64,000 nt of DNA from Gemmatimonadaceae bacterium. Its GTDB lineage: Bacteria > Gemmatimonadota > Gemmatimonadetes > Gemmatimonadales > Gemmatimonadaceae. The stretch's first letter is position 1. Every line of letters starts with the position of its first letter. The position numbers and the translations under genes were made by a program. The notes beneath the pieces were generated by a model. It did no database searches. It was not told where the DNA came from and saw only the letters and a program-made list of their open reading frames with translations. The DNA is taken from NCBI GenBank assembly GCA_030835125.1, contig JAUQWM010000044.1, positions 1-64,000 on the forward strand. The letters are read 5' to 3'. Positions 6,297-45,727 of this stretch are shown one piece after another.

Positions 6297-8063
6297 ATGC
6301 GACTACAACTCCTGTTACTGCCTCTGGCGGTGGGGCTGAGCCCCCTCGCCCTGCCTGGGCAACAACGCGCCCCGCTCACCGATCGCGAGATCGGCGACAT
6401 AACGACGCTCCTCAGCCTTGAGGACCATCGCCGCTTCGACTCCGTCGCGCTCGGCCGGATGCTCCGCGACCGGCATCCCGAGGTACGGCGCCGAGCCGCG
6501 CTGTCGATCGGCAGGATCATGGATCCCGCTGGGCGCGCGCTGTTACGCAGCGCACGACGAGACAGGGACACAGCGGTTGCGGCGACCGTTGTCTTCGCGA
6601 CTGCCCAACTGTATGACTCATCGGCCATCGGCTGGCTCGATTCCCTCCTGATGAACCCGAGGACGCCAGTTGGTGTCGCGACCGAGGCGGCGCGCGCGTT
6701 CGGGTTGATTCGCACGCCCGCCACGCGAACGGCCCTTCTGCGATTCCTTGCTGGTGCTCCCGAGAACGCATCGGCATCGCTCGTCGGTGAAGCACTGCTG
6801 TCCGTCGGCCGTCACCCGAGGGGGGACTTCACGCCCGTCGCTCGCTGGACGACGTCGCGCGACGTCGAGGTCCGCTGGCGCGCAACGTGGGCGCTGTTCC
6901 GGCCACGTGATCCGTCCATGGTGGCGACGCTCCTCAGCCTCACCTCCGACCCCGAAGTCATTGTTCGCAACTGGGCGGTGCGCGGACTCACCTGGGCCCA
7001 GGTCGACACCGCGCGGCTCGATCCAGCCGCCGTGCGCGCGCGATTGCGCGCCCTGCTCGCTGATCCCGACCGCACGGTGCGTACCGAGGCGCTACGCGCG
7101 CTGGGCACTCATCCGGATTCAGCGTCGGTGTTGGCGGTAGGAGAGAGTCTGAAAGATCCCGACGCCTGGGCTTCGGTCACTGCCGCCGAAGCGCTCGCGG
7201 CACATCGGTCGTTCGCCGGCATGACAGTCCCGCGCCTCATTGCTGCGGCGTCTTCCGGGCCATCGTGTGCCGCCCGGTCGGTTGCGTTGGCGTCGATCAA
7301 CACGCTCTCTCCGGGTGACGGGTACAATGCCGCCGTCGCGATGTCACGCGACACGTCGATTCAGTGTCGTTCGGCCGCCGTCACGTACCTCCGAGGCATG
7401 GGTGACCGCGTGCGCATCGCCCTCGACTCCCTGCGCAGCGACTCGGCGACCCTGGTGAGCACACCCGCTCGTGCGGCGTACAACGCGCTGTTCGACTCCC
7501 TTGCCGGGCGCGCCGGTGGCCGCGGTGGACGTGGCGGTGGCGGCGGTGGGGGTCGTGGTGGACGCGGCGCCATCGTAACTGGAAAGACCGATGCCGATTA
7601 TCGCCGCATCGTCGAGCAGTGGATCGTGCCCGACTACAACGGAAAGGCGCATCCACGGTCGGAGTGGGTGACTAACCGTGGCACAATAGAGATCGAGCTC
7701 TATCCAGGAGACTCGCCGATAGCAGTCGACAATTTCGTGCGCATGGTCAACGCCGGCACGATTACAGGAACCGATTTCAGCCGCGTGGTTCCTGATTTCG
7801 TCGACCAGCAGCGCGGCATCGCCGGGGCGCCGCTACAGCGCGACGAGGTGAATCGCCATCGACTGACGCGGGCGAACCTCAGCTGGGCGAGCGCTGGCCT
7901 CGATACCGGGCGCCCGGGTTACACGCTCAACCACACGGTACAGCCGCACAACGAGGGCAGCTTCACGTCGATGGGGCGCGTGGTGGGCGGGATGGACGTG
8001 GTCGACCGCATCGAACTTGGCGATCGCGTGTTGCGCACGAGGATGCTGCCGGAAACGAGGTGA
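6297..8063 (+). CDS. exported HEAT-repeat protein fused to a cyclophilin-type peptidyl-prolyl isomerase
   Basis: The 588-residue protein starts at ATG 6297 with a signal peptide (LQLLLLPLAVGLSPLALPGQ). Residues 25-390 are HEAT-like helical repeats (for example HPEVRRRAALSIGRI, SRDVEVRWRATWALF, DRTVRTEALRALG). A Gly/Arg-rich linker lies near residues 405-425. The last 150 residues are a cyclophilin domain: GTIEIELYPGDSPIAVDNFV, then DFSRVVPDFVDQQRG, then NEGSFTSMGRVVGGMDVVD. Cyclophilins catalyse proline isomerisation, and the HEAT part probably binds protein partners. The likely location is the periplasm. An upstream in-frame ATG at 6195 would precede the signal peptide and is less likely. 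The product is probably a folding factor. Confidence 0.85.
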   Translation: MRLQLLLLPLAVGLSPLALPGQQRAPLTDREIGDITTLLSLEDHRRFDSVALGRMLRDRHPEVRRRAALSIGRIMDPAGRALLRSARRDRDTAVAATVVFATAQLYDSSAIGWLDSLLMNPRTPVGVATEAARAFGLIRTPATRTALLRFLAGAPENASASLVGEALLSVGRHPRGDFTPVARWTTSRDVEVRWRATWALFRPRDPSMVATLLSLTSDPEVIVRNWAVRGLTWAQVDTARLDPAAVRARLRALLADPDRTVRTEALRALGTHPDSASVLAVGESLKDPDAWASVTAAEALAAHRSFAGMTVPRLIAAASSGPSCAARSVALASINTLSPGDGYNAAVAMSRDTSIQCRSAAVTYLRGMGDRVRIALDSLRSDSATLVSTPARAAYNALFDSLAGRAGGRGGRGGGGGGGRGGRGAIVTGKTDADYRRIVEQWIVPDYNGKAHPRSEWVTNRGTIEIELYPGDSPIAVDNFVRMVNAGTITGTDFSRVVPDFVDQQRGIAGAPLQRDEVNRHRLTRANLSWASAGLDTGRPGYTLNHTVQPHNEGSFTSMGRVVGGMDVVDRIELGDRVLRTRMLPETR

Positions 8064-34293: not shown

Positions 34294-34314
34294 CAATGGG
34301 GTCAGACCCCATTG
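34294..34314. repeat. perfect palindrome around GGGGTCAGACCCC
   Basis: A 21-nt dyad with CAATGGGG and CCCCATTG arms around TCAGA. A near-identical palindrome lies at 56659-56681. It resembles REP-type palindromes of the GGGGTCAGA class. Confidence 0.75.
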
Positions 34315-34446
34315 CCCGCTGACATGGCAACCAAAGGTCGAGTTGCCTCCCCTGGTGATCAGCCTACCCGAGTCCTTCGCAGCGGCGTTGGACTGAGCGG
34401 CGTTTGCTCAAAAACGGGTAGTGCCCCCGACACAAGCGCGTGCCCT

Positions 34447-34594
34447 TGACTGCACGAACGCCGAGGACACCGAGGACGCCGAGGATCGCGGGGTAACGAA
34501 GGAGGGGTTGAACGATGTCGCGTCAGACCCCAATCCCGCGGGTTCCCTCGGCGCTCCCCGGCGTCCCCTGCGTCCTCTGCGTTGTGCCCTTTGA
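34447..34594. repeat. palindromic repeat family, copy H
   Basis: The forward arm 34447-34492 begins GACTGCACGAACGCCGAGG. The reverse arm 34543-34594 ends CTGCGTTGTGCCCTTTG. They face each other across 50 nt, as in copy B. The whole stretch 34246-34740 has no credible gene; Arg-rich frames here are repeat translations. Confidence 0.8.
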
Positions 34595-34740
34595 TGCAAC
34601 GCACGAGGGCGGAATCAGCAACGCAGCCCTCGCCGCCCGACCCTCCACCGAGCAGAAGATGCGCATGGAGTAGCCGAGGTCGGCGTGGCGTCCGGGTCTT
34701 CCCCCCCGTCCCGCCGCAACGGAGATTCGCTTGCTCCAGC

Positions 34741-35280
34741 GTGTCCCCAGTGGCCCACTCCGCATCCGTGACCGAGGCGATCGAACGAGACCTCTCCGGG
34801 AAGTTCCGCGAGAGGCTCCGGATGTTCGGTGCCCGCCGGCTTGGCGATGCGGCGCTCGCCGAGGATCTCGCGCAGGAGGTCCTGCGGCTGGTGACCGAGG
34901 CGCTGCGCGGTGGCCGCATCGCGGACCTGGAGGCACTGCCGGCGTTCGTCTTTCAGACGGCGACGCACCTGTGCATGCATCACTACCGTTCGCGGGAGCG
35001 TGAAGAACGGGCGATGGCGCGCATGGTCGGGATGAGCCCGGGGGATCCGGGTCCATCACCCCTCGATGTCCTGGTGAACGAGGAGGGCCGGGGAGTGGTA
35101 CGCGCCGCGCTGGCCGAACTCAGGCCCGACGATCGAGATCTCCTGCGCCGGATCTACTTCGACGAGGAACCGACTGAGCAGACGGCGCGGAGCCTCGGGG
35201 TGACCCTCGGCGCCCTGCGCGTCCGCAAGCACCGAGCCCTGGCGCACCTCGCCAGCGTGCTCACCGAATGGCGGCTGTGA
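34741..35280 (+). CDS. ECF-type RNA polymerase sigma factor
   Basis: The protein has about 179 residues. The start is uncertain: GTG codons at 34741, 34750 and 34768 are all possible and no ATG fits. Region 2 is visible in LAEDLAQEVLRLVTEALRGG and AFVFQTATHLCMHHYRSRER. Region 4 is visible in AELRPDDRDLLRRIYFDEEP, then TARSLGVTLGALRVRKHRAL, an HTH that reads the -35 box. It directs transcription of a specific regulon, which in such systems usually includes its own operon. An anti-sigma and a CHAT gene follow at once. Confidence 0.88.
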   Translation: MSPVAHSASVTEAIERDLSGKFRERLRMFGARRLGDAALAEDLAQEVLRLVTEALRGGRIADLEALPAFVFQTATHLCMHHYRSREREERAMARMVGMSPGDPGPSPLDVLVNEEGRGVVRAALAELRPDDRDLLRRIYFDEEPTEQTARSLGVTLGALRVRKHRALAHLASVLTEWRL

Positions 35281-35312
35281 AACGTGATGCATCCAGCGGG
35301 AACCCTACTGTG

Positions 35313-35918
35313 ATGGAACAGCAACCGATCACGTGCGAGATGGTGGACCAGCGCGAGCTGGACCGCCTCTATGTCGCTGGGCGCCTCGGCGAGGACGAGG
35401 CGGCGGCCTTCGAGGCGCACTACTTCGGCTGCGACCGGTGCTGGGCGCTGGTCAAGGGCGGCGCGGGTGTTCGCGCTGCGCTGGCCGGTACAGCGGCCCA
35501 GGCGCCCGCTATCCGCCGACGCTCCTGGGTCAGGCCGCTGGCAACGGCGGCGGCGCTTGCGATCGTCGTCTTCGGGACCTGGCGCCTGGTCGACCCGACC
35601 GAGTCCGACGCGCCGGATGCCATCCGCGGTCCCGCCGATTCAATCGCCGTTGCGACGGGCAGCGCCGCGGGGCGCTGGACGGCCGCCTGGCCGTCCGTTG
35701 CCGAGCCGGGCTCGTACCAGGTGCGACTCTTCACCGCCGATGGACGGCTGATCCTGACACGCGACATGAGCGATACCACGCTCTCGCTCCCCGCGGACTC
35801 GCTCACTGGCGTCGCTGGCGGTGGAACGCTCTTCCTCGAGGTCCAGCGGTTGGACATGCTGCGGCGTCCGGTCGCCCGCTCTCCACTCATCGCGCTCCGG
35901 CCACCCGGGCAGCGCTGA
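35313..35918 (+). CDS. membrane anti-sigma factor with zinc-binding motif
   Basis: The 201-residue protein is taken from ATG 35313; an ATG at 35268 overlapping the sigma stop is also possible. The N-terminal ZAS-type motif is HYFGCDRC (H-x3-C-x2-C) within EDEAAAFEAHYFGCDRCWAL. One membrane helix (PLATAAALAIVVFGTWRLV) separates it from an exported Ig-like C-terminal domain (GSYQVRLFTADGRLILTRDM). ZAS domains hold the sigma factor inactive until a signal arrives. It lies between the sigma and CHAT genes with only 4 nt to the latter. Confidence 0.85.
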   Translation: MEQQPITCEMVDQRELDRLYVAGRLGEDEAAAFEAHYFGCDRCWALVKGGAGVRAALAGTAAQAPAIRRRSWVRPLATAAALAIVVFGTWRLVDPTESDAPDAIRGPADSIAVATGSAAGRWTAAWPSVAEPGSYQVRLFTADGRLILTRDMSDTTLSLPADSLTGVAGGGTLFLEVQRLDMLRRPVARSPLIALRPPGQR

Positions 35919-35922
35919 CCGG

Positions 35923-38673
35923 ATGCGCACCGTCTTGCCGAAGACCGCATTCAGCACCGTCGTCGCGTTACTGGCGCTCGCCGGCACCGGATGCGAAGCG
36001 GGTCGAGACCGTGCGCCCGTCTCGCCATTCCATGCCGCGGACAGCCTGCGGGACGAACGGCGCTTCTCCCAGGCGCACCCGCACTACCGCCGTCTGCGCG
36101 ACTCCTTCGCCCTGGCGCAGGACACCGCCGGGTGGTGGCGCGCGCAAGTCTGGTGGGCCCAGACCCTGATGCGCCTCGGCAGAACCGACAGCAGCGAGAC
36201 GGCGATCCGGGACGCCTTCCTCCTGGCCGGATCCGATTCGACTCGTCAGGCGTGGACCTGGCTGATGCGCTGCGGACTCCGGTCGCGGCTGGGGCAATCA
36301 CAGGAGGCGATCGATGATTGCGCCCTTGCCCAGCAACTGGCGGACGCGTTGGGGGCCGGTGACCTCCAGGCGCGAGTGCACTTCCAGTTAGGCACGATCT
36401 ATTCCCGGCGCGGCCTGTTCCGCCGCTCGGTCGCGGAGTCCGAGCAGGCGCTCGCGCTCGAGCGGCAATACGGCGGCTCGCCGCACCAGTTGGCGGGTGC
36501 GCTCAACAGCATGGGGGTCGAGTACGCGGCCGTCGGACGACTGTCGGAGGCGGCGCAAGCGTACGAGGAAGGGCTGGCGATCACTCGTCAGGTCGCGGAC
36601 ACATCGACCGCCGGGTACCTGATCAGCAATCTCGCCGCCCTCCGTGCCTACACGGGGCGCCTCGACCAGGCGGTCGAGCTGATGACCCAGTCGCTCGCCT
36701 CGGCGATCGCCCTCGGCGACACGGCGTCGATGGTATACGCCCACAACTCGCTGGCCGGCTACTTCCTCAAGGCCGGTAACGTCGGTGCCGCGCGGGAGCA
36801 TGTCGAACGATCGCTGTCGCTGGACGGGCGGTCTCCCGCGATCTACCGCGTCATCGCGCTGACCAACCTGGGGTTGATCGCGATGGCCGAAAGGAGCCCG
36901 GATTCCGCCGCCGCCAGTTTCGATCGGGCCCTTGGTCCAGCGGTGCGTGGAGGGTTCGCCTTCGAACGATTGCGGATTCTCACCGCGCAGGTGCGCCTTG
37001 CCATCGATCGGGGTGACCGATCGGCCGCGCGCCGACTGCTGAGCGTCGCGAGCACCGTCGCCGATTCCCTCGGGAGTCCGGATGCCGAGCTGGATGTGCT
37101 GGTGCTCCAGGGACGTGTGGCCGAACTGGAGCGGCGCGCCGACGCATCCCGTTTCTTCCTCGACGGCATCGACCTGCTGGAGTCCTGGCGTGGCCGTCTG
37201 GCGATGGGGGACCTGAAGCTCGGGATCACGGAGCCCAAGTGGGCCGTCTATGAAGGCGCGATCCGGACCCTCTTCGCCCGGGGAGACACGTCCTCGGCGT
37301 TCGACGTCGCCGAACGCGCCCGCGCACGCATGCTGCTCGAGGTCATGGCCGAGCGAGGCGCGCAGACCAGGGTGTCCTCGGCGGCGACGCTGAAGCAGCG
37401 GCTTCGCGAGCGAGCCGAGGAAGCCGGCGCGGGCGCGGACTCGTCCGAACAGCGGCAGGTGGCGGCGGAACTCCGCGCGCTCCAGGACTCGCTGTCGGCG
37501 CTCGAACGGGATACCGCGCAGGACGCGCGAGCGCGGGTGCGCCATCCGGTGCCCGCTCCGATTGCCGAGATCCGGGCCCGGCTGCTGGATCGGCCGGATG
37601 TGGCGATGTTCTCCGTCTTCTGGGGTGACAGCGCCGTGTACGGATGGTGGATCACCGGCACTGCCCTTCGCGGCCGTCGGCTCGGGTCCGCCGACTCGCT
37701 TGCCGCGACACTCGACTTCCTCCGGCGCGCCATCGAGCGTCCTGGCGACTCGACCTGGCGGGCGGCGGCCCGCAGGTCCTGGCAACAGTTGCTGGAGCCC
37801 TTCGCGGTCTCGGGATCGACCACGATCTATGCCATCGTGGATGGCCCGCTGGCGCGCGTGCCACTCGAGGTGCTGGTGCCGGCCCCGGCCGCTGCGCCGT
37901 TAGGCGCGACGCATCGCATCATCTACGGACCGTCCGCCTCGGTACTCACCGCGCTCGCGCAGTCCGGCTCGCCGGGGCGCTGGGAGCGCGCGATCCTGGC
38001 GGTGGGAAATCCGCGGGCCCTGGTGGCGTCGCGCATGCCCTCTCCTGACGTGGCACGAGACGCCGGCAGCGGCCTGGAACTGCCGTTCGCCGAGTCTGAA
38101 GCGCGCACCCTCCGCGACCTGTACGAGGAAGAAGGAGCCGACCTGCTGGTCGGACGCGCCGTGACTTCGGATCGATGGCTGGCGCTCCGGCCGGAGCGGT
38201 ACCGGTACCTGCACTTCGCCGCGCACACGTCAGTGAGCGACCGCGATCCCGAGGAGAGCCGCCTCCTGCTCGCGGATGGAATGCTGGACCTGTCGGTGAT
38301 CCGCGGCCTGAGGCTGACCGCTGAGCTGGTGACCTTGTCGGCGTGTGAGACCGCGGTCGGACGCCGCGTAAGGGGCGAAGGGGTCGTTGGCCTGTCTCAC
38401 GCATTCCTCTCCGCGGGCGCCCGCAGCGCACTCGTGACGCTGTGGCCGGTAACCGACCGGTCCACGTCGCTCTTCATGACCGATGTCTACCGGGAGCTGC
38501 ATGGTGGACGCGGCGCCGCGGAGGCGCTGTACCGGGTGCGCAGCAGGTGGATAGCAGCCGACTCGGCCACCAGCCACCCGGCCTACTGGGCGCCTTTCAT
38601 CCTGGTTGGAGACCCGAGTCCGCGCGCGAGCAGTGGCGTCGCGCCGGTGCGGGAGCGAGCCAAGGGGATGTAG
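35923..38673 (+). CDS. TPR protein with C-terminal CHAT (caspase-like) protease domain
   Basis: The 916-residue protein starts at ATG 35923, 4 nt after the anti-sigma stop. The N-terminus looks like a lipoprotein signal (FSTVVALLALAGTGCEAG). TPR repeats fill roughly residues 35-440 (for example LGTIYSRRGLFRRSVAESEQ, LAGALNSMGVEYAAVGRL, YLISNLAALRAYTGRLDQAV). The CHAT domain covers the last 300 residues. The catalytic dyad is H768 (YLHFAAHTS) and C808 (LVTLSACETAVGR), followed by GEGVVGLSHAFLSAGARSAL. CHAT proteases cleave protein partners upon activation. Its place in a sigma/anti-sigma operon suggests it acts in, or is controlled by, that signal path. Confidence 0.9.
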   Translation: MRTVLPKTAFSTVVALLALAGTGCEAGRDRAPVSPFHAADSLRDERRFSQAHPHYRRLRDSFALAQDTAGWWRAQVWWAQTLMRLGRTDSSETAIRDAFLLAGSDSTRQAWTWLMRCGLRSRLGQSQEAIDDCALAQQLADALGAGDLQARVHFQLGTIYSRRGLFRRSVAESEQALALERQYGGSPHQLAGALNSMGVEYAAVGRLSEAAQAYEEGLAITRQVADTSTAGYLISNLAALRAYTGRLDQAVELMTQSLASAIALGDTASMVYAHNSLAGYFLKAGNVGAAREHVERSLSLDGRSPAIYRVIALTNLGLIAMAERSPDSAAASFDRALGPAVRGGFAFERLRILTAQVRLAIDRGDRSAARRLLSVASTVADSLGSPDAELDVLVLQGRVAELERRADASRFFLDGIDLLESWRGRLAMGDLKLGITEPKWAVYEGAIRTLFARGDTSSAFDVAERARARMLLEVMAERGAQTRVSSAATLKQRLRERAEEAGAGADSSEQRQVAAELRALQDSLSALERDTAQDARARVRHPVPAPIAEIRARLLDRPDVAMFSVFWGDSAVYGWWITGTALRGRRLGSADSLAATLDFLRRAIERPGDSTWRAAARRSWQQLLEPFAVSGSTTIYAIVDGPLARVPLEVLVPAPAAAPLGATHRIIYGPSASVLTALAQSGSPGRWERAILAVGNPRALVASRMPSPDVARDAGSGLELPFAESEARTLRDLYEEEGADLLVGRAVTSDRWLALRPERYRYLHFAAHTSVSDRDPEESRLLLADGMLDLSVIRGLRLTAELVTLSACETAVGRRVRGEGVVGLSHAFLSAGARSALVTLWPVTDRSTSLFMTDVYRELHGGRGAAEALYRVRSRWIAADSATSHPAYWAPFILVGDPSPRASSGVAPVRERAKGM

Positions 38674-38907
38674 CAGGCGAGGTGCGGCGGGGCGGTCGCG
38701 CGCACGACGCAGGCGGCCCGGGCAGACCCGTCGTGAGCGAGTTCGGCGGACTCCGACCCGAGCGTCCGTCCACTATCGCCTGGGACACCCGGTCAAGCTG
38801 AATGGGACTCGTCGACTACCGCACCACGAGGCGCAACCTTACACTGGCCCGACCGACGATCCCGGGCCTGCCCTCATCCCGAACCCACTCCGAGTGAGCA
38901 AACACCG
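38674..38907. other. gap before the hybrid regulator gene, nothing recognised
   Basis: This 234-nt region between the CHAT gene and the hybrid two-component gene has no clear promoter, hairpin or repeat. Confidence 0.4.
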
Positions 38908-41900
38908 GTGAACGCCGCGGCCTGCGCCCGTTGCATTGTCACCGTCGCGGGGCTCTCCGTGCTTTCTGCGGGCAACGCCGCCGCGCAGCGCGAGGCGCCG
39001 GTCTCGCTCGCACCCGTCTTCCGCGTGGATCGCTGGACCACCGCCGAGGGCCTGCCGGGAATGGCCGTGACCAGGATTCGCGCCGGTCCGGACGGCCACC
39101 TGTGGCTCATCGCCAGCGGCAGTGTCGTTCGCTTCGATGGGTATGGCTTCCAACCCCTCGGTGGCGGCCCGCCCGACCTTCGGCCCGCCCGCACGTTTGA
39201 CATCCTCCCAGTGGGCGGTGACACCGTGTTCGTGCTGAGCGTTCGCTGGGCGCCCGACACCTCGGTGTTGACGACGTATGTCGGCGACCGACGGTTGGGC
39301 GAACTGAAGGTCCCGGGCATCTGGGTCGGCGTGGTTCGCGACGGCCGCGGTGCGCTCTGGCTCCAGGGCAACAGGAGCAGCGGTGTCGTGGCCCGCTTTG
39401 CCGGTGGCCTCCTGTCCCCGCCGCTGGACGTTGCCGCCGCGGACTCGCGTGGAGAGGAGTACGGCTCGCTGATGGCGATTGACCGATTCGGCGACCTCTG
39501 GCTGCGCGACGCGAAACGCGATTCGGTCGGCCGGGTGACCGCGCTGGGGCTGACCTTCGCCGCGCCGGCACCAACGTCGGCGCTGATCACGCGCCCGTCG
39601 ACTCGCGACATTCTGTCTGCGTCGCGCATCGGGCAGACCATCACCGTGCACGCACCCGATGGAGCGCGTATCGCGGCGTTCACCGATGGAGAGGGACGCA
39701 CCCCGCGCCTGGTTGACCGGAGTGGCCGACTGTGGGTCAGCACATCGACGGGCCTCGAGGCGTTTGTCGCCGGCTCGATGGTCCCCGTGGCCCGCGTGCC
39801 GTTGCCTGACCTCGACGTGGTCGACGATCTCATCGAGGACCGGGAGGGTAACCTCTGGGCGCGGGCCACCACGCAGGGCATTTACCGGATCCGCGAGCAG
39901 CCAGTCGTTATGCTCGGCGCCGCCCAGGGCGTGATCGGTCGGCAGGTCATGGCCATCGCCCGTGGACCGGACCGGTCCATGCTGCTGACCGACGCGCGGG
40001 GCGCCGCGTATCGATACCAGGACGGTGTCCTGTCGGTGGTGGCCGATCCCGACCGACCGACGCCAGTTGTCCTGGCCTGGCCGTACCCCGTCGAGGCAGA
40101 CTCCCGCGGCACCGTGTGGCTGAAAGGCACGATCGATACGTCACCACCGCCTGCCATTATCATCGGCCGCCGTGCGGATCGCGGCATGGTCACGGTGCGC
40201 ACGCCAGCCTACATCACCCTGATCCGTGAGGACCCGCGTCGCGATGGCACGATCTGGGCCGGAGGCGGGGACCTGCTGCAACTGCGTCCTGATGCCGTCG
40301 ACGGCAAGGTGGTCCTCGATTCGATCCCGATCGGAGCCGAGTCCATCCGCTCTTTGGCGTTCGACAAGGCAGGCGCGCTGTGGACCCCATCCGACGCGGG
40401 CCTGGTCAGGATCTTCGAGGGTCAGCGTGCCGTGTTCAGCGACTCGCTCTGGCCGGGGCGTCAGGCACGTTCCCTCCACATCGACTCCACCGGGGCGATC
40501 TGGATCGGGACCTACGGCCTGGGGCTGCTGCGCTACAAGGACAGCGTCTTTCGTCGCCTGACCGAACGGGACGGGCTGGCCGAGGATGTCGTCTCGACGA
40601 TGCTGGAAGACGACGCCGGCAACCTCTGGATGGCGGGCAACCGTTCGGTGCACCGGGCGAGCCTAGCACAGCTGCATGCCTTCATGGACGGCACCGTGGG
40701 GCGGGTCGACAGCCGGGCGTATACGCAGGCGGATGGGATCCCCAATCCGGAAACGAGCGGATGGGCGGGCGCGCGAGATGCCACAGGCCGGCTCTGGTTC
40801 CCGACCTTTGACGGCGCCGCCATCATTGATCCGGCGCGCGCGATCGCGCTCGACAACGTGGCGCCACTGGTGCACGTCGGCGCCGTGCACGCTCCCTCCG
40901 GCGCGATCCCGCGCGACTCGCTGGCCGCGCATACCGTGCGGATCGCGGCCCGCGATCGACGGTTCGAGATCGCCTACACCGCGATTGCATTGCGGGACCC
41001 GCAGGCCGTGCGATTCCGCTACCGGCTCGACGGGTTCGACAAGGACTGGAACGACGCCGGCACATCGCGCACGGCGACGTACACCGGGGTCCGCGGCGGA
41101 CACTACACGTTCCGCGTCGCGGCGATCAACGCCGGTGGTGTGCGATCGGAGACCGATGCGACGCTCGAGGTGTTCGTCGCGCCGCGCTTCCGTGAGACGG
41201 CCTGGTTCCTTGCGCTCGCCGCGATCGGGATCGCCGGGCTGGGATACCTGGGCGCGCGCTGGCGCCTGGCGAGCGTGCTGCGCCGCCAGGAGGAACTCGA
41301 CCGGCTGGTCGCGGAACGGACCGCGATGCTGACGGAGCAGACGACCAGGACAGAACTCGCGCTCTCCACAGTGGCGGAGCAGGCCGACAAGCTGCGTGCG
41401 TTGGATGTCGCCCGGTCGCGCATGTTCTCCAACGTGAGCCATGAGTTCCGCACGCCCCTCACGCTCATCGTCGGCCCGCTGCGCGACCTGAAGGACGGCA
41501 GGCTGGGTGCGCTGCCACCCGCGGCGCGGGACGAGATCGATGTGGTGCTCCAGAGCAGCGAGCGGCTCAACACGTTGGTGGAGGAACTGCTCGATGTGGC
41601 GCGGCTCGAGGCCGGTGAACTCAAGCTGCAGTTGCAGGGAGGGGACGTGGTCGCATTCCTCCGGCGCATCAGCCGCGGCTTCGAGCCCCTGGCACGCGCC
41701 CGCCGGATCACGTACCGCGAATCACTGCCTGACGAGTCGATCCGGATGGCGTTCGACCCGGCCCGGCTCGAGAAGGTCCTCAACAACCTCCTCGGCAACG
41801 CCTTCAAGTTCACCGGCGAGGGAGGGACCATCGCGCTGAGTGTCGCGCCTGACGCGGGTGGGCAGTGGGTCCGTATTGCCGTCAAGGATACGGGCATCGG

Positions 41901-42969
41901 GATCCCGGCGGACGCACTGGCGCGCGTCTTCGAGCGCTTCTACCAGGTAGACGACAGCTCGCGGCGCCAGTACCAGGGCACGGGCGTGGGACTGGCGCTC
42001 GCGCGAGAGCTGGTGGAACTGCACGGCGGGACGATCGACGCAACGAGCGTGGAGGGGGAGGGCAGCGAGTTCGTCGTGCACCTGCCGGTCGCGCCGGCCG
42101 CTGGCCCCGCCGCGGTGGCGCCGGTCGACGAGCCGGCGGAGTCAGGGGCATCCGTCGCCTCACCAGGTGAGTCCACTCCCCACGAGTTGGTGAACGAGGG
42201 ACCGACGGTGCTGATCGTGGAAGACAATCCGGGACTGCGGGCGTGGCTCCGTCGCCACCTGGAGGCGTCGTACGCGGTGGTGGAGGCGGTGGATGGCGTG
42301 ACCGGACTGGAGACCGCGCGCCGCGTCCTGCCTGACGTGGTGGTGAGCGACGTGATGATGCCTAACATGGACGGGCAGGAGATGCTGGAGGCGATCCGGG
42401 CCGACCCATCGCTGGCCTGGCTGCCGGTCATTCTGCTGACCGCGCGCGCCTCGCACGAGAGCCGGCTCACGGGACTGCGAGGCGGCGCCGACGACTACAT
42501 CACCAAGCCGTTCGACATCGACGAGGTTCTCCTGCGGGTCGGGAACCTGATCGCGTCGCGCCGGCGCTTGCGCGATCGCCTCGGCGAGTCGCAGCGCGTG
42601 GCGCCGACGATTCCGCCGCCGATCAGCCAGCACCAGCAGGCGGCGACGCAGTTCGTGAATGACCTGCAGCGCGTGATCCAGTCGCACCTGGACGACGAGG
42701 ACTTCGGCGTGGACGCGCTGGCCGTGGCGCTCAACATGAGCCGGTCCTCGCTGTACCGCCGGGCGCAGGACGTCCTCGGACGCCCTCCTATGGATGTGGT
42801 CTGGGAGTCTCGGCTCGACCTCGCGGCCCGCTGGCTGCGTGAGACGGACGCCGCCGTCAATGAGATCGCCTACGGCGTCGGGTTCAAGAGCGTGCCGCAC
42901 TTCAGCCGGAAGTTCCGGGAGCGGTTCGGGATGAGCCCATCTGAGGCGAGGGTGAAGGGCAGAGGGTAG
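38908..42969 (+). CDS. hybrid two-component system protein (HTCS) with periplasmic propeller sensor
   Basis: The 1353-residue protein starts at GTG 38908, with a signal peptide (CIVTVAGLSVLSAGNAAAQ). Residues 40-640 are regulator-propeller blades (TTAEGLPGMAVTRIRAGPDG, LIEDREGNLWARATTQGIYR). A Y_Y_Y domain follows (YRLDGFDKDWNDAG), then one membrane helix (WFLALAAIGIAGLGYLGARW). Inside are the kinase (H845 in FSNVSHEFRTPL, then NLLGNAFKFT and GTGVGLALARELV), a receiver (D1148 in VVVSDVMMPNMDG) and an AraC-type DNA-binding domain (LNMSRSSLYRRAQDVLG, then YGVGFKSVPHFSRKFRERFG). HTCS proteins sense glycans or peptides and switch on uptake operons. No target operon is adjacent. Confidence 0.94.
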   Translation: MNAAACARCIVTVAGLSVLSAGNAAAQREAPVSLAPVFRVDRWTTAEGLPGMAVTRIRAGPDGHLWLIASGSVVRFDGYGFQPLGGGPPDLRPARTFDILPVGGDTVFVLSVRWAPDTSVLTTYVGDRRLGELKVPGIWVGVVRDGRGALWLQGNRSSGVVARFAGGLLSPPLDVAAADSRGEEYGSLMAIDRFGDLWLRDAKRDSVGRVTALGLTFAAPAPTSALITRPSTRDILSASRIGQTITVHAPDGARIAAFTDGEGRTPRLVDRSGRLWVSTSTGLEAFVAGSMVPVARVPLPDLDVVDDLIEDREGNLWARATTQGIYRIREQPVVMLGAAQGVIGRQVMAIARGPDRSMLLTDARGAAYRYQDGVLSVVADPDRPTPVVLAWPYPVEADSRGTVWLKGTIDTSPPPAIIIGRRADRGMVTVRTPAYITLIREDPRRDGTIWAGGGDLLQLRPDAVDGKVVLDSIPIGAESIRSLAFDKAGALWTPSDAGLVRIFEGQRAVFSDSLWPGRQARSLHIDSTGAIWIGTYGLGLLRYKDSVFRRLTERDGLAEDVVSTMLEDDAGNLWMAGNRSVHRASLAQLHAFMDGTVGRVDSRAYTQADGIPNPETSGWAGARDATGRLWFPTFDGAAIIDPARAIALDNVAPLVHVGAVHAPSGAIPRDSLAAHTVRIAARDRRFEIAYTAIALRDPQAVRFRYRLDGFDKDWNDAGTSRTATYTGVRGGHYTFRVAAINAGGVRSETDATLEVFVAPRFRETAWFLALAAIGIAGLGYLGARWRLASVLRRQEELDRLVAERTAMLTEQTTRTELALSTVAEQADKLRALDVARSRMFSNVSHEFRTPLTLIVGPLRDLKDGRLGALPPAARDEIDVVLQSSERLNTLVEELLDVARLEAGELKLQLQGGDVVAFLRRISRGFEPLARARRITYRESLPDESIRMAFDPARLEKVLNNLLGNAFKFTGEGGTIALSVAPDAGGQWVRIAVKDTGIGIPADALARVFERFYQVDDSSRRQYQGTGVGLALARELVELHGGTIDATSVEGEGSEFVVHLPVAPAAGPAAVAPVDEPAESGASVASPGESTPHELVNEGPTVLIVEDNPGLRAWLRRHLEASYAVVEAVDGVTGLETARRVLPDVVVSDVMMPNMDGQEMLEAIRADPSLAWLPVILLTARASHESRLTGLRGGADDYITKPFDIDEVLLRVGNLIASRRRLRDRLGESQRVAPTIPPPISQHQQAATQFVNDLQRVIQSHLDDEDFGVDALAVALNMSRSSLYRRAQDVLGRPPMDVVWESRLDLAARWLRETDAAVNEIAYGVGFKSVPHFSRKFRERFGMSPSEARVKGRG

Positions 42970-43166: not shown

Positions 43167-45727
43167 ATGGTCACCGGACCCGATCGCTCCGCCTCAGCTC
43201 CGCCGTCCTGGTCCTTTCCGTCCTCGCGGCGTGCGGCTCACCCGAGAATCCCACGGAGCCGGATCCCACGCCACCTCCGACCGTCGCGGCCGAGGTGCGC
43301 CTGTCCCTGGACAGCGTGCAGGTCGTGGTCGGCAATTCGACCACGCTGACGGCGACCGTGATCGACAGCAAGGGTGCCACGTCCTCGGCCTTCCCCGTTA
43401 CGTGGAGCAGTTCGACGCCCAGCGTGGTGACCAGTTCGGGGAACGGCACATTCGCCGCAGTGTCACCGGGCCTGGCCGTCGTCGTCGCGACCGCCCAGGG
43501 TGGCGTCTCGGCCACCGCGCGCATCCGGGTGGTGGAGGTCGCGGTCAGCCAGGATGTCGTGATGGCCGACTCGGGGTTCAGGGTGCTGTCGGACTCCGCG
43601 GAGATTGCCGCGGGGACGCTGCGCATGCAGGCGACCGGCGCGGGCGGCCAGGTCGCCGTAGGCGACGTCGTGTTCGGGACCACGGACGGCGGCTTCCTGC
43701 AGAAGGTGACGGCAGTGCAGTCCTCGGGGCAGAACGTGGTCCTGTCCACGGTGCCGGCGAGGCTGACCGATGCGATACAGCAGGGGACGATCGACGTGTC
43801 GGGGAACGTGGACATTTCGGCCGAACTGGCGCAGGCGCGGCTGCGAACCGGCAAGGACGCCATCCAGCTTCCTCCTGGCGTCTCCATTGACCATCGCGGA
43901 CGCGTGCTCTTCAGCAACGCGGACTTGATCTTCGAGTCGGGCGGCAGCATCCAGGGGTTGGAGGCGCACGTCCGGCTGACCGGCGCCATCAATGTCAGGT
44001 CCGGCAGCGAGCTCAAGCCCGGAGCGGACTCGTGGCGACTCAAGCTGGACATCAATCCCTGCTTCTCCACCGGGATCTGTCTCGACAGGGTCGATTTCGG
44101 GACGGTCGTTGGCGTGGAACTCGATGGGGCCATCGAGTCCGAAGTGGCGATCACGTCGGGCGGTCGGCTGGCGGTGCCGCTCAAGATCCCGATGGGCCGC
44201 AAGCGGATCGCCAACATTCCGTTGCGGGGTCAGTGCTTTGCTGGCCAGATGCTGTGCGTCGGGTTGTTCGCGGTGCTGGAGGTGTATGCGGAAACCTCAG
44301 CCAGTGCGCAACTGACCGTCTCCCGGCCGATCAATGTGAAGAGCGGTGTGGATGCGGGCTTCACGTGGACTGAGGCGCAGGGGTTCAAGGGGCACTTCGA
44401 CCCGATCAACTCCTTCACCCAGAACGCGCCCACGTACTCGATCGGCGGCGAGGCCGGGGTCCGCCTGGGGATGGAAGCCAAGCTCCTGTTGACTGTGTTC
44501 GGCCGGGGTGAGCTCTCCGGCGGTGTCGACGCAGCCGTGCAGGCCTCGATCTCGGCAAACTCGAACTACGAGTGGAACGCCGAGGTCCTGGCATTGCTGG
44601 AGGCGTTCGCGCGCGCCGAGATTGACGTCCTGGGGTTCCACGCCTCGTGGGAGCCCGTGCGCCTGCGGATCTGGGACCACGCCCTCGCGTCGGCCAGCGG
44701 GGCGCTCGCCAAGCTCTCACTGGCACCCGCGTCGGTTTCGGTGGAGGTGGCGAAGCAGTCGACGGTCACGCCGCACGCGAGCACGATCCTGGGGAACTTC
44801 GACATCGGCATCACGCCGCAGGGGGTCGATTGGGAAGTCTCGCCGCCCAGCCTCGCCAGCGTAAGCACGTCAGGCGTGGTGACCGGGTTGCAGGCGGGAG
44901 CGGGCGTGCTGAAGGCCACGATCAAGGGTACGACCATATCGGCGCAGGTGCCGCTGACGGTAACGCAGCCGGGGCTGGAACTCTTTGCCTGCATCACGTT
45001 CAACCAGCCAGTTGGCGGGCGCTGCCCATCGCCCCCGGTGTCGCAGTACGCCAGTCGGGGCCAGTTGCTCCAATACCTCTGGGTACAGGTGGCCCCGCCG
45101 GGGGCGCCGTCGGTGACGGGGTACTCGCTGACGGTGCACGATCCCTTCACGGGCGCAGTCCTCACTCCGGTCACGACCGTGAACCACCACACGCTGTTCC
45201 AGTTCACGGTGCCGGCGAACCAGGCGCCGGGCTCCTACAACGTCGTGGTCGGCCCGGCGTCGAAGGCGGGGTACGTCAATGCGGCACCGATCAACGTCCC
45301 GCTCGAGGTCGTCAACGGGACGGTCGGTGTGGGCGCGTGCCTGACGAGAGACGCCACGGCTTCGTTCAACTACAACCTGCATTGCGTTGCGCCGACCGGG
45401 TCCTGCCCGATCGCCGATTCCCCGACCTGCACAAACTTTCAATTGACCGGCGGTGTTGCCGGCCAGACGTACTACCTGTGGTTTGGTGGAGACGACGAGA
45501 ACCACGTCGCGATGTGCGGCGTGACCGTCAGCGTCAAGAATCCCTTCACGGGTGTCACGACGGACCACCTGGTCCCCCAGGGGACGCCGCTCTGCCTCCT
45601 GAGGGTTCCGTTCACGGTTCCCGGGGGCACCGGGCCCGGGAGCTACACCTTCGAGGTGGGACCTGCCCGGCTGCAGGGGTGGGCGCCCACGCCGATCAAG
45701 AAGACCCTGACCCTGGTGATTCCATGA
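43167..45727 (+). CDS. exported lipoprotein with Ig-like (BIG2) domains; signal peptide out of frame with any start
   Basis: The frame ending at 45727 is open back to a TAG near 43096. It encodes a lipoprotein signal, SSAVLVLSVLAACGSPENP, with the lipobox Cys at 43232. There is no ATG, GTG or TTG in that frame upstream of it; the nearest ATG (43167) is one frame off, so a frameshift or unusual start is likely. The mature protein begins with a BIG2 domain (VRLSLDSVQVVVGNSTTLTA), then a long beta-rich region (residues about 100-420 from 43295), a second BIG2 (SLAPASVSVEVAKQSTVTPH) and two C-terminal Ig-like units (SYNVVVGPASKAGYV, SYTFEVGPARLQGW). It should be on the cell surface or periplasm. 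The stop overlaps the next start (ATGA). Confidence 0.7.

Follow-up and report, generated by a model that had tools for sequence, protein, structure and literature searches.

The stretch analysed here (the window) comprises 64 000 nucleotides (nt) of contig JAUQWM010000044.1, assembly GCA_030835125.1, from a Gemmatimonadaceae bacterium. Between positions 34741 and 38673 it carries three consecutive plus-strand genes, coding for an extracytoplasmic function (ECF) sigma factor, a membrane-bound zinc anti-sigma factor and an exported protein with tetratricopeptide repeats (TPRs) and a CHAT domain (table 1). The sigma and anti-sigma genes overlap by 13 nt with the start at 35268 (an alternative ATG lies at 35313), and 4 nt separate the anti-sigma stop codon from the start of the CHAT gene. 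The coordinates, near-contiguity and 4-nt gap reported in an earlier, sequence-only reading were correct when the open reading frames (ORFs) were re-read, and the H768, C808, lipoprotein-like N-terminus and TPRs that it described were found again by alignment, sequence and Pfam. Simple scans detected neither a sigma-70-type promoter nor a plus-strand terminator in 34300–39000; because these scans cover consensus patterns only, this is weak evidence that the three genes may be expressed as a single transcript.

Table 1. Features of the three-gene locus, with positions in the window.
Feature	Coordinates	Strand	Basis
ECF-type sigma factor	34741..35280	+	179 aa, GTG start; Pfam Sigma70_r2, r4, r4_2 and TIGR02937 above cut-off
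Membrane-bound zinc anti-sigma factor	35268..35918	+	216 aa; zf-HC2 above cut-off; AlphaFold2 (AF2): helices, transmembrane (TM) segment, beta domain
zf-HC2 anti-sigma domain, residues 34–58	35367..35441	+	Pfam zf-HC2
Predicted TM helix, residues 90–107	35535..35588	+	AF2 helix (low predicted local distance difference test score, pLDDT); hydrophobic stretch preceding the stalk
Juxtamembrane stalk, residues 108–126	35589..35645	+	modelled disordered; pLDDT <50 at 100–125
R120, conserved stalk arginine; predicted cut between R120 and G121	35625..35627	+	49/49 family members, 20/20 held-out
FN3-like extracytoplasmic domain, about residues 127–210	35646..35897	+	beta sandwich; Foldseek matches to FN3 domains
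Exported TPR-CHAT protein	35923..38673	+	916 aa; sequence, Pfam, AF2 mean pLDDT 85.6
Lipoprotein-like signal peptide, C24	35923..35994	+	sequence; Cys aligned in six window-clade proteins
TPR superhelix, about residues 39–452	36037..37278	+	Pfam TPRs; paired helices in AF2 model
CHAT domain, residues 614–897	37762..38613	+	PF12770 E 2.5e-57
Catalytic His H768	38224..38226	+	H in 67/84 aligned CHATs
Catalytic Cys C808	38344..38346	+	C in 84/84 aligned CHATs

The sigma factor matches Sigma70_r2 with an E-value of 3.7e-6 and r4_2 with 2.5e-10. The zf-HC2 match of the anti-sigma factor (E 3.1e-5; 24.4 bits against a cut-off of 22.2) includes the motif H51-x3-C55-x2-C58, and the protein fits class I (ZAS) in having a zinc-finger domain and a gene that overlaps an ECF sigma gene. 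Its AF2 model, from four sequences, is the weaker of the two obtained (mean pLDDT 59.7), with ectodomain blocks of 69–87 over residues 131–210. R120 is placed in the stalk modelled as disordered, immediately before the FN3 domain.

The N-terminus of the CHAT protein, MRTVLPKTAFSTVVALLALAGTGC, resembles a signal peptide and has a non-canonical lipobox, its cysteine being aligned in 6/6 members of the window clade. The PF12770 match reaches 195 bits against a cut-off of 24, and the domain is predicted to be a separase-like Cys/His peptidase. The AF2 model of the whole protein, built from 30 sequences, is good. It aligns with Csx29 (8eey_B) at Z 32 over 589 residues (root-mean-square deviation, rmsd, 9.0) and with the separases 5u1s (Z 28.6 over 681 residues) and 5fc2 (Z 26.4 over 310 residues, 3.4 Å). 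The first Foldseek match is DdvA (8rot, E 3.4e-15), but the whole-chain rmsd is 9.8, a poor superposition, and 8rot is absent among the 50 matches listed by a second structural aligner. The window protein falls below the NCBIfam model of Csx29, NF041237 (15.7 bits against 300 required).

A CHAT match is present in 53 of 99 related genomes. We compared 80 regions around strong matches with 40 control regions from the same genomes, sampled twice from each of 20 contigs; one control (L131; loci are given as L numbers) overlaps with a CHAT locus, which tends to lessen the contrast. Together with the window, the regions hold 86 of the 119 CHAT rows (rows 1–82 minus two at contig edges, plus 6 of the 37 weaker ones). 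The survey of co-occurrence suggested in the sequence-only reading was carried out on this material. Of the 85 CHAT ORFs, 50 have a sigma gene within 3 kb, compared with 6 of 96 large ORFs in the control regions (Fisher p = 5e-15); among the 31 CHAT ORFs with enough flanking sequence the number is 20, tested against the same controls (Fisher p = 1e-10). Pfam r4_2 matches number 37–72 per genome in seven genomes, about 8–10 per Mb, so some 8 per cent proximity is expected by chance, close to the control rate; the home-made sigma profile used for the survey found 6.4 sigma genes per Mb in the control regions, below the Pfam density. The association between CHAT and sigma genes is not due to chance.

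Gene architecture was labelled by hand for 84 CHATs (the 85 ORFs minus L108, which is outside the second profile): 32 are in an operon in the order sigma, anti-sigma, CHAT, one is a fusion, 13 are convergent, five share the strand but are separated by a gap, and 33 are labelled as unlinked. Three of the operon labels (L039, L069 and L047) refer to anti-sigma and CHAT genes only, the contig ending before a sigma gene. Some of the 33 unlinked labels are limited by contig ends; among them, L074 has sigma and anti-sigma genes downstream on the same strand, and L086 has both about 3.5 kb away. The labels are clustered on the CHAT tree (21 changes; shuffled labels average 39.7), where the window protein belongs to a clade of six members with 100/100 support. 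L067 and L068 are tandem CHAT genes within a ten-member clade labelled without a sigma link. The genome of the window carries a second CHAT gene with a lipoprotein-like start (L079, contig C20), with no sigma or anti-sigma gene in the fetched flanks. L109 combines a CHAT-like C-terminus with a start that by eye resembles an alpha/beta-hydrolase.

For a test in the reverse direction, the same genomes were scanned with a profile built from 26 anti-sigma factors linked to CHAT; up to 31 candidates per genome were scored and the best 50 matches kept, four of them partial (E up to 3.9e-19, a cut of our choice). For 44 of the 50, the locus has a CHAT gene no farther than about 4 kb away; two are at contig ends and four are without. 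Among the 44, one CHAT is split into two frames and two have 3.3–3.5 kb between the genes. The profile matches at E up to 1e-20 in at least 51 of 298 genomes of the phylum, a scan in which up to 10 candidates per genome were scored; anti-sigmas may be missed there, likewise in the reverse test. At the 20 best new (held-out) places, CHAT lies directly downstream on the same strand in 16 cases; three of the others stop at contig ends and one, beyond a TPR-like start, is interrupted by masked sequence. The FN3-type anti-sigma family is mostly found at CHAT loci. At L308, a convergent CHAT gene in two frames lies beside an intact anti-sigma gene. The FN3-type anti-sigmas of L303, L305, L306 and L307 have no CHAT gene in the fetched stretch, and that of L306 is without a clear zinc domain; near the lone anti-sigma of L307, positions 6777–7280 code for a lipoprotein-like protein with an FN3-like domain only.

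In one case, L070, the zinc domains, TM segment, FN3 domain, TPRs and CHAT domain are encoded in a single open frame. A hydrophilic linker takes the place of the CHAT signal peptide of unfused relatives, so the fusion is not simply a lost stop codon, and the absence of the signal peptide implies that the outer parts of the anti-sigma and the CHAT share a compartment. Named genomes were scanned as well, yielding 564 relatives; we retained the 80 best, and none of these bears Gemmatimonadota in its title. In 15 of the 80, a sigma gene lies within 4 kb of the CHAT gene; examples come from Acidobacteria (L152, Pyrinomonadaceae; L224), Chloroflexi (L212), Bacteroidetes (L186, L188 and L209) and a deltaproteobacterium (L199), with the genes arranged as operons, convergently or divergently. 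Among 15 hand-picked pairs from other phyla, a TM-bearing partner goes with an exported CHAT in 11/11 cases and a TM-less partner with a CHAT lacking a signal peptide in 4/4 (L190, L212, L228 and L172), with p = 7e-4 for the association as a whole. L164, L167, L182, L194, L197 and L231, where the partner is doubtful or not adjacent, were left out of this count, and a signal peptide predicted inside the TPR region of L228 was judged spurious. L190, L212 and L228 have a common linker with RSG or RGS and the word RQMLF. CHAT export, as judged from the sequences, follows the membrane anchoring of the partner. The link that the sequence-only reading had drawn between the CHAT protein and the sigma/anti-sigma switch is thus strongly supported, by recurrence in several orders, orientations and phyla, by the fusion and by matched export.

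An arginine followed by a small or acidic residue stands just before the FN3 domain in all 49 readable stalks of the FN3-type family, the next residue being G (22), E (8), S (7), A (6), D (3), T (2) or P (1). Of 54 anti-sigma hits, 50 were retained (L039 and L074 are incomplete, L085 is TPR-type and L087, with the stalk VVRGG, was missed by the pattern), and L131 was then removed as a duplicate of L048; the 49 include four CHAT-less anti-sigmas and the rows used to build the profile, whereas the held-out set includes neither. In 60 residue-shuffled realignments the best arginine column averages 16, with a maximum of 44. Among control stalks, taken from the 29 membrane anti-sigmas with a clear TM among 40 fetched (by coordinates not near CHAT places), the pattern R[GSAEDT] occurs over the same stretch in 14. 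All 20 held-out stalks, read by eye, have the arginine followed by S, A, D, E, G or N (L330 reads VERN; L335 and L336 are near copies). By eye, the motif of arginine and small residue also precedes TPR-like (L081, L085 and L098) and helical (L053, L101 and L105) ectodomains, in 6/6 cases, and a like motif occurs in partners from other phyla, including the TM-less partners of cytoplasmic CHATs. Such conservation of one residue in a variable, disordered linker, ahead of unrelated folds, is to be expected of a protease site. Clan CD peptidases often prefer arginine at P1.

The exported CHAT protein probably targets the outer portion of the anti-sigma factor, cleavage at the conserved arginine being the likeliest mode. 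On balance, we think it somewhat probable that the CHAT protein is the site-1 protease of a regulated intramembrane proteolysis (RIP) cascade that acts on the stalk of the anti-sigma factor, and we infer the following steps from binding to release. The cytoplasmic zinc domain would hold the ECF sigma factor, and the single TM helix would lead to a flexible stalk and the FN3-like domain outside. The product of the third gene, exported as a probable lipoprotein, would meet this ectodomain, its TPR superhelix being the likely sensor or docking surface. On a signal, the CHAT domain would make the site-1 cleavage after R120, and an M50 site-2 protease, together with cytoplasmic proteases, would then free the sigma factor. 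Both features expected of RIP are found, a gene for an M50 site-2 protease in the genome and a TM anti-sigma factor with an ectodomain. The prediction is specific as to the residue (R120) and the active site (C808).

Several observations weigh against cleavage, or against the arginine as its site. The catalytic histidine is replaced by Tyr (15 cases), Ser or Phe in 17 of the 84 CHATs, which form one clade (100/98) of the same operon-linked type; the catalytic cysteine is kept in 17/17, the partners keep the stalk arginine in 15/15 readable stalks, and His-less CHATs are present in the held-out set as well. Counted on the PDB sequences from the catalytic cysteine of separase, which we take to be residue 2110, D2151 and its published Csx29 equivalent K670 are both at W+8. 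In separase, D2151 has been reported to read the P1 arginine (PMC9729208). Position W+8 is Ser (S849) in the window CHAT and Ala in 49 of the 84 family members; the separase S1 aspartate, expected in the window CHAT, was therefore rejected, and an arginine pocket, if any, is built otherwise. For Csx29, no single Csx30 residue around the cut was reported to be essential for cleavage (PMC10028731), so CHAT specificity need not depend on one residue. Stalks average 4 arginines each, so the alignment signal could be partly compositional. The CHAT-less L303, L305, L306 and L307 still have the stalk arginine before a small residue. The six weaker CHAT matches that were fetched have no sigma gene within 3.5 kb, so the link holds for strong CHAT matches.

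The main rival is a CHAT that binds the ectodomain without cutting it, a sensor or shield comparable to RseB, in which the TPRs take the signal and the peptidase fold holds the stalk arginine, exposing it to another protease or hiding it. The His-less clade, which retains the operon, the cysteine and the partner's arginine, speaks for such a receptor, and in L070 the CHAT fused to the anti-sigma is itself His-less. Shielding of an anti-sigma factor by a partner has been reported in another system (PMC11637429). We nevertheless regard a non-cutting receptor as unlikely for the window, whose clade has retained H as well as C, in line with most CHATs (table 1), which suggests selected catalysis. 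The sequence-only reading had also offered the CHAT protein as an output of the regulon, an exported peptidase with other targets that travels with its regulator; cargo genes often adjoin their sigma gene, and the operon is shared by many genomes. This appears improbable, and is the least likely of the three readings: the link survives convergent and divergent orientation of the CHAT gene, the two proteins form one chain in L070, their compartments are matched, and the anti-sigma family is mostly at CHAT loci. Upstream of 23 operon sigma genes, the top two-block word, TTGAC-N18-ATAT, occurs in 4 cases against at most 3 in 20 shuffles and looks vegetative; at 12 convergent loci, and at all 35 loci together, promoter words are not above shuffles. 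Regions upstream of CHAT genes were searched for promoters without a shuffle control.

The stalk arginine might instead be structural or topological, a part of the linker into the ectodomain that is unrelated to proteolysis, which would be compatible with either the receptor or the output. Arginine is frequent in stalks, and the control stalks show the same pair of residues in nearly half of the cases. This explanation seems rather doubtful, since the pair also precedes TPR-like and helical ectodomains and is seen in the TM-less partners of cytoplasmic CHATs. The site-1 protease is favoured among the readings considered here. Cleavage of the anti-sigma factor by the CHAT domain, as the sequence-only reading proposed, is the best reading of the locus; it is unproven, and in its simple form fails for the His-less sister clade.

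Two further genes lie downstream of the locus. Positions 38908–42969, just after the CHAT gene, code for a hybrid two-component protein (Reg_prop, Y_Y_Y, HisKA, HATPase, receiver and AraC HTH), and positions 43295–45727 for a large protein with Big_2 domains and without an NCBIfam match.

A role in defence, to which the sequence-only reading had alluded, found no support: PADLOC gave only weak TPR and BovA matches, and one scan of viral contigs turned up nothing related to the CHAT protein; the search did not extend to defence genes in the gene neighbourhoods. The three-gene arrangement was not found described in the literature searched, and may be published in subscription papers or preprints, which were outside the search. 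The split exported form, the CHAT-tied FN3-type anti-sigma family, the stalk arginine and the His-less clade are apparently new, as far as that literature goes. The kind of system is known, DdvA joining an anti-sigma and a CHAT in one chain and Csx29 cutting a sigma inhibitor.

Known site-1 proteases of anti-sigma control are mostly serine proteases, DegS being a PDZ serine protease. The locus resembles the DegS-RseA-RseP cascade in its TM anti-sigma factor with an ectodomain, its ECF sigma factor and the M50 protease in the genome; it differs in its candidate site-1 protease, a TPR-bearing, separase-like lipoprotein with a CHAT domain. Eukaryotic separase shares the fold and the LWxVxD motif, and differs in the S1 aspartate at W+8. 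For the ECF54 group, CHAT proteins have been reported in the gene context, and proteolytic control in the absence of an anti-sigma factor has been proposed (PMC8999054); the locus described here has an anti-sigma gene. Closer in parts is the type III-E Craspase system of Csx29, Csx30 and CASP-sigma, with a TPR-CHAT protease, an ECF-like sigma factor and a sigma inhibitor, Csx30, reported to be cleaved by Csx29 (PMC10028731). Craspase differs in being activated by RNA within the Cas7-11 complex, and its inhibitor is without the plan of zinc, TM and FN3 domains. DdvA of Myxococcus xanthus is the anti-sigma of the ECF sigma factor DdvS, whose activating signal is described as unknown (PMC4374960). 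The PDB entries 8rot and 8rw5 ('transmembrane anti-sigma factor DdvA') are deposited as 'CHAT domain-containing protein', of 991 residues, and from its name 8rot is presumably the Myxococcus protein. DdvA has anti-sigma and CHAT in one chain, an arrangement present in L070; the window instead has two proteins, with the FN3 ectodomain on one and the signal peptide on the other.

These comparisons suggest a wider scheme, which we put forward tentatively and consider possible rather than probable. A large family of ECF anti-sigma factors would undergo site-1 cleavage, after a single conserved juxtamembrane arginine, by an exported separase-like (caspase-fold) lipoprotein dedicated to this task; the scheme would recur in several phyla with varied ectodomains, and inside the cell with cytoplasmic partners. 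The His-less sister clade would be a non-cutting receptor, offering a natural comparison of protease and pseudoprotease within the same operon type. Craspase might then be a CRISPR-recruited relative of an older module, and the sigma branch of Craspase and DdvA would come together in a wider family of switches through a caspase-fold enzyme for which one cut site is predicted.

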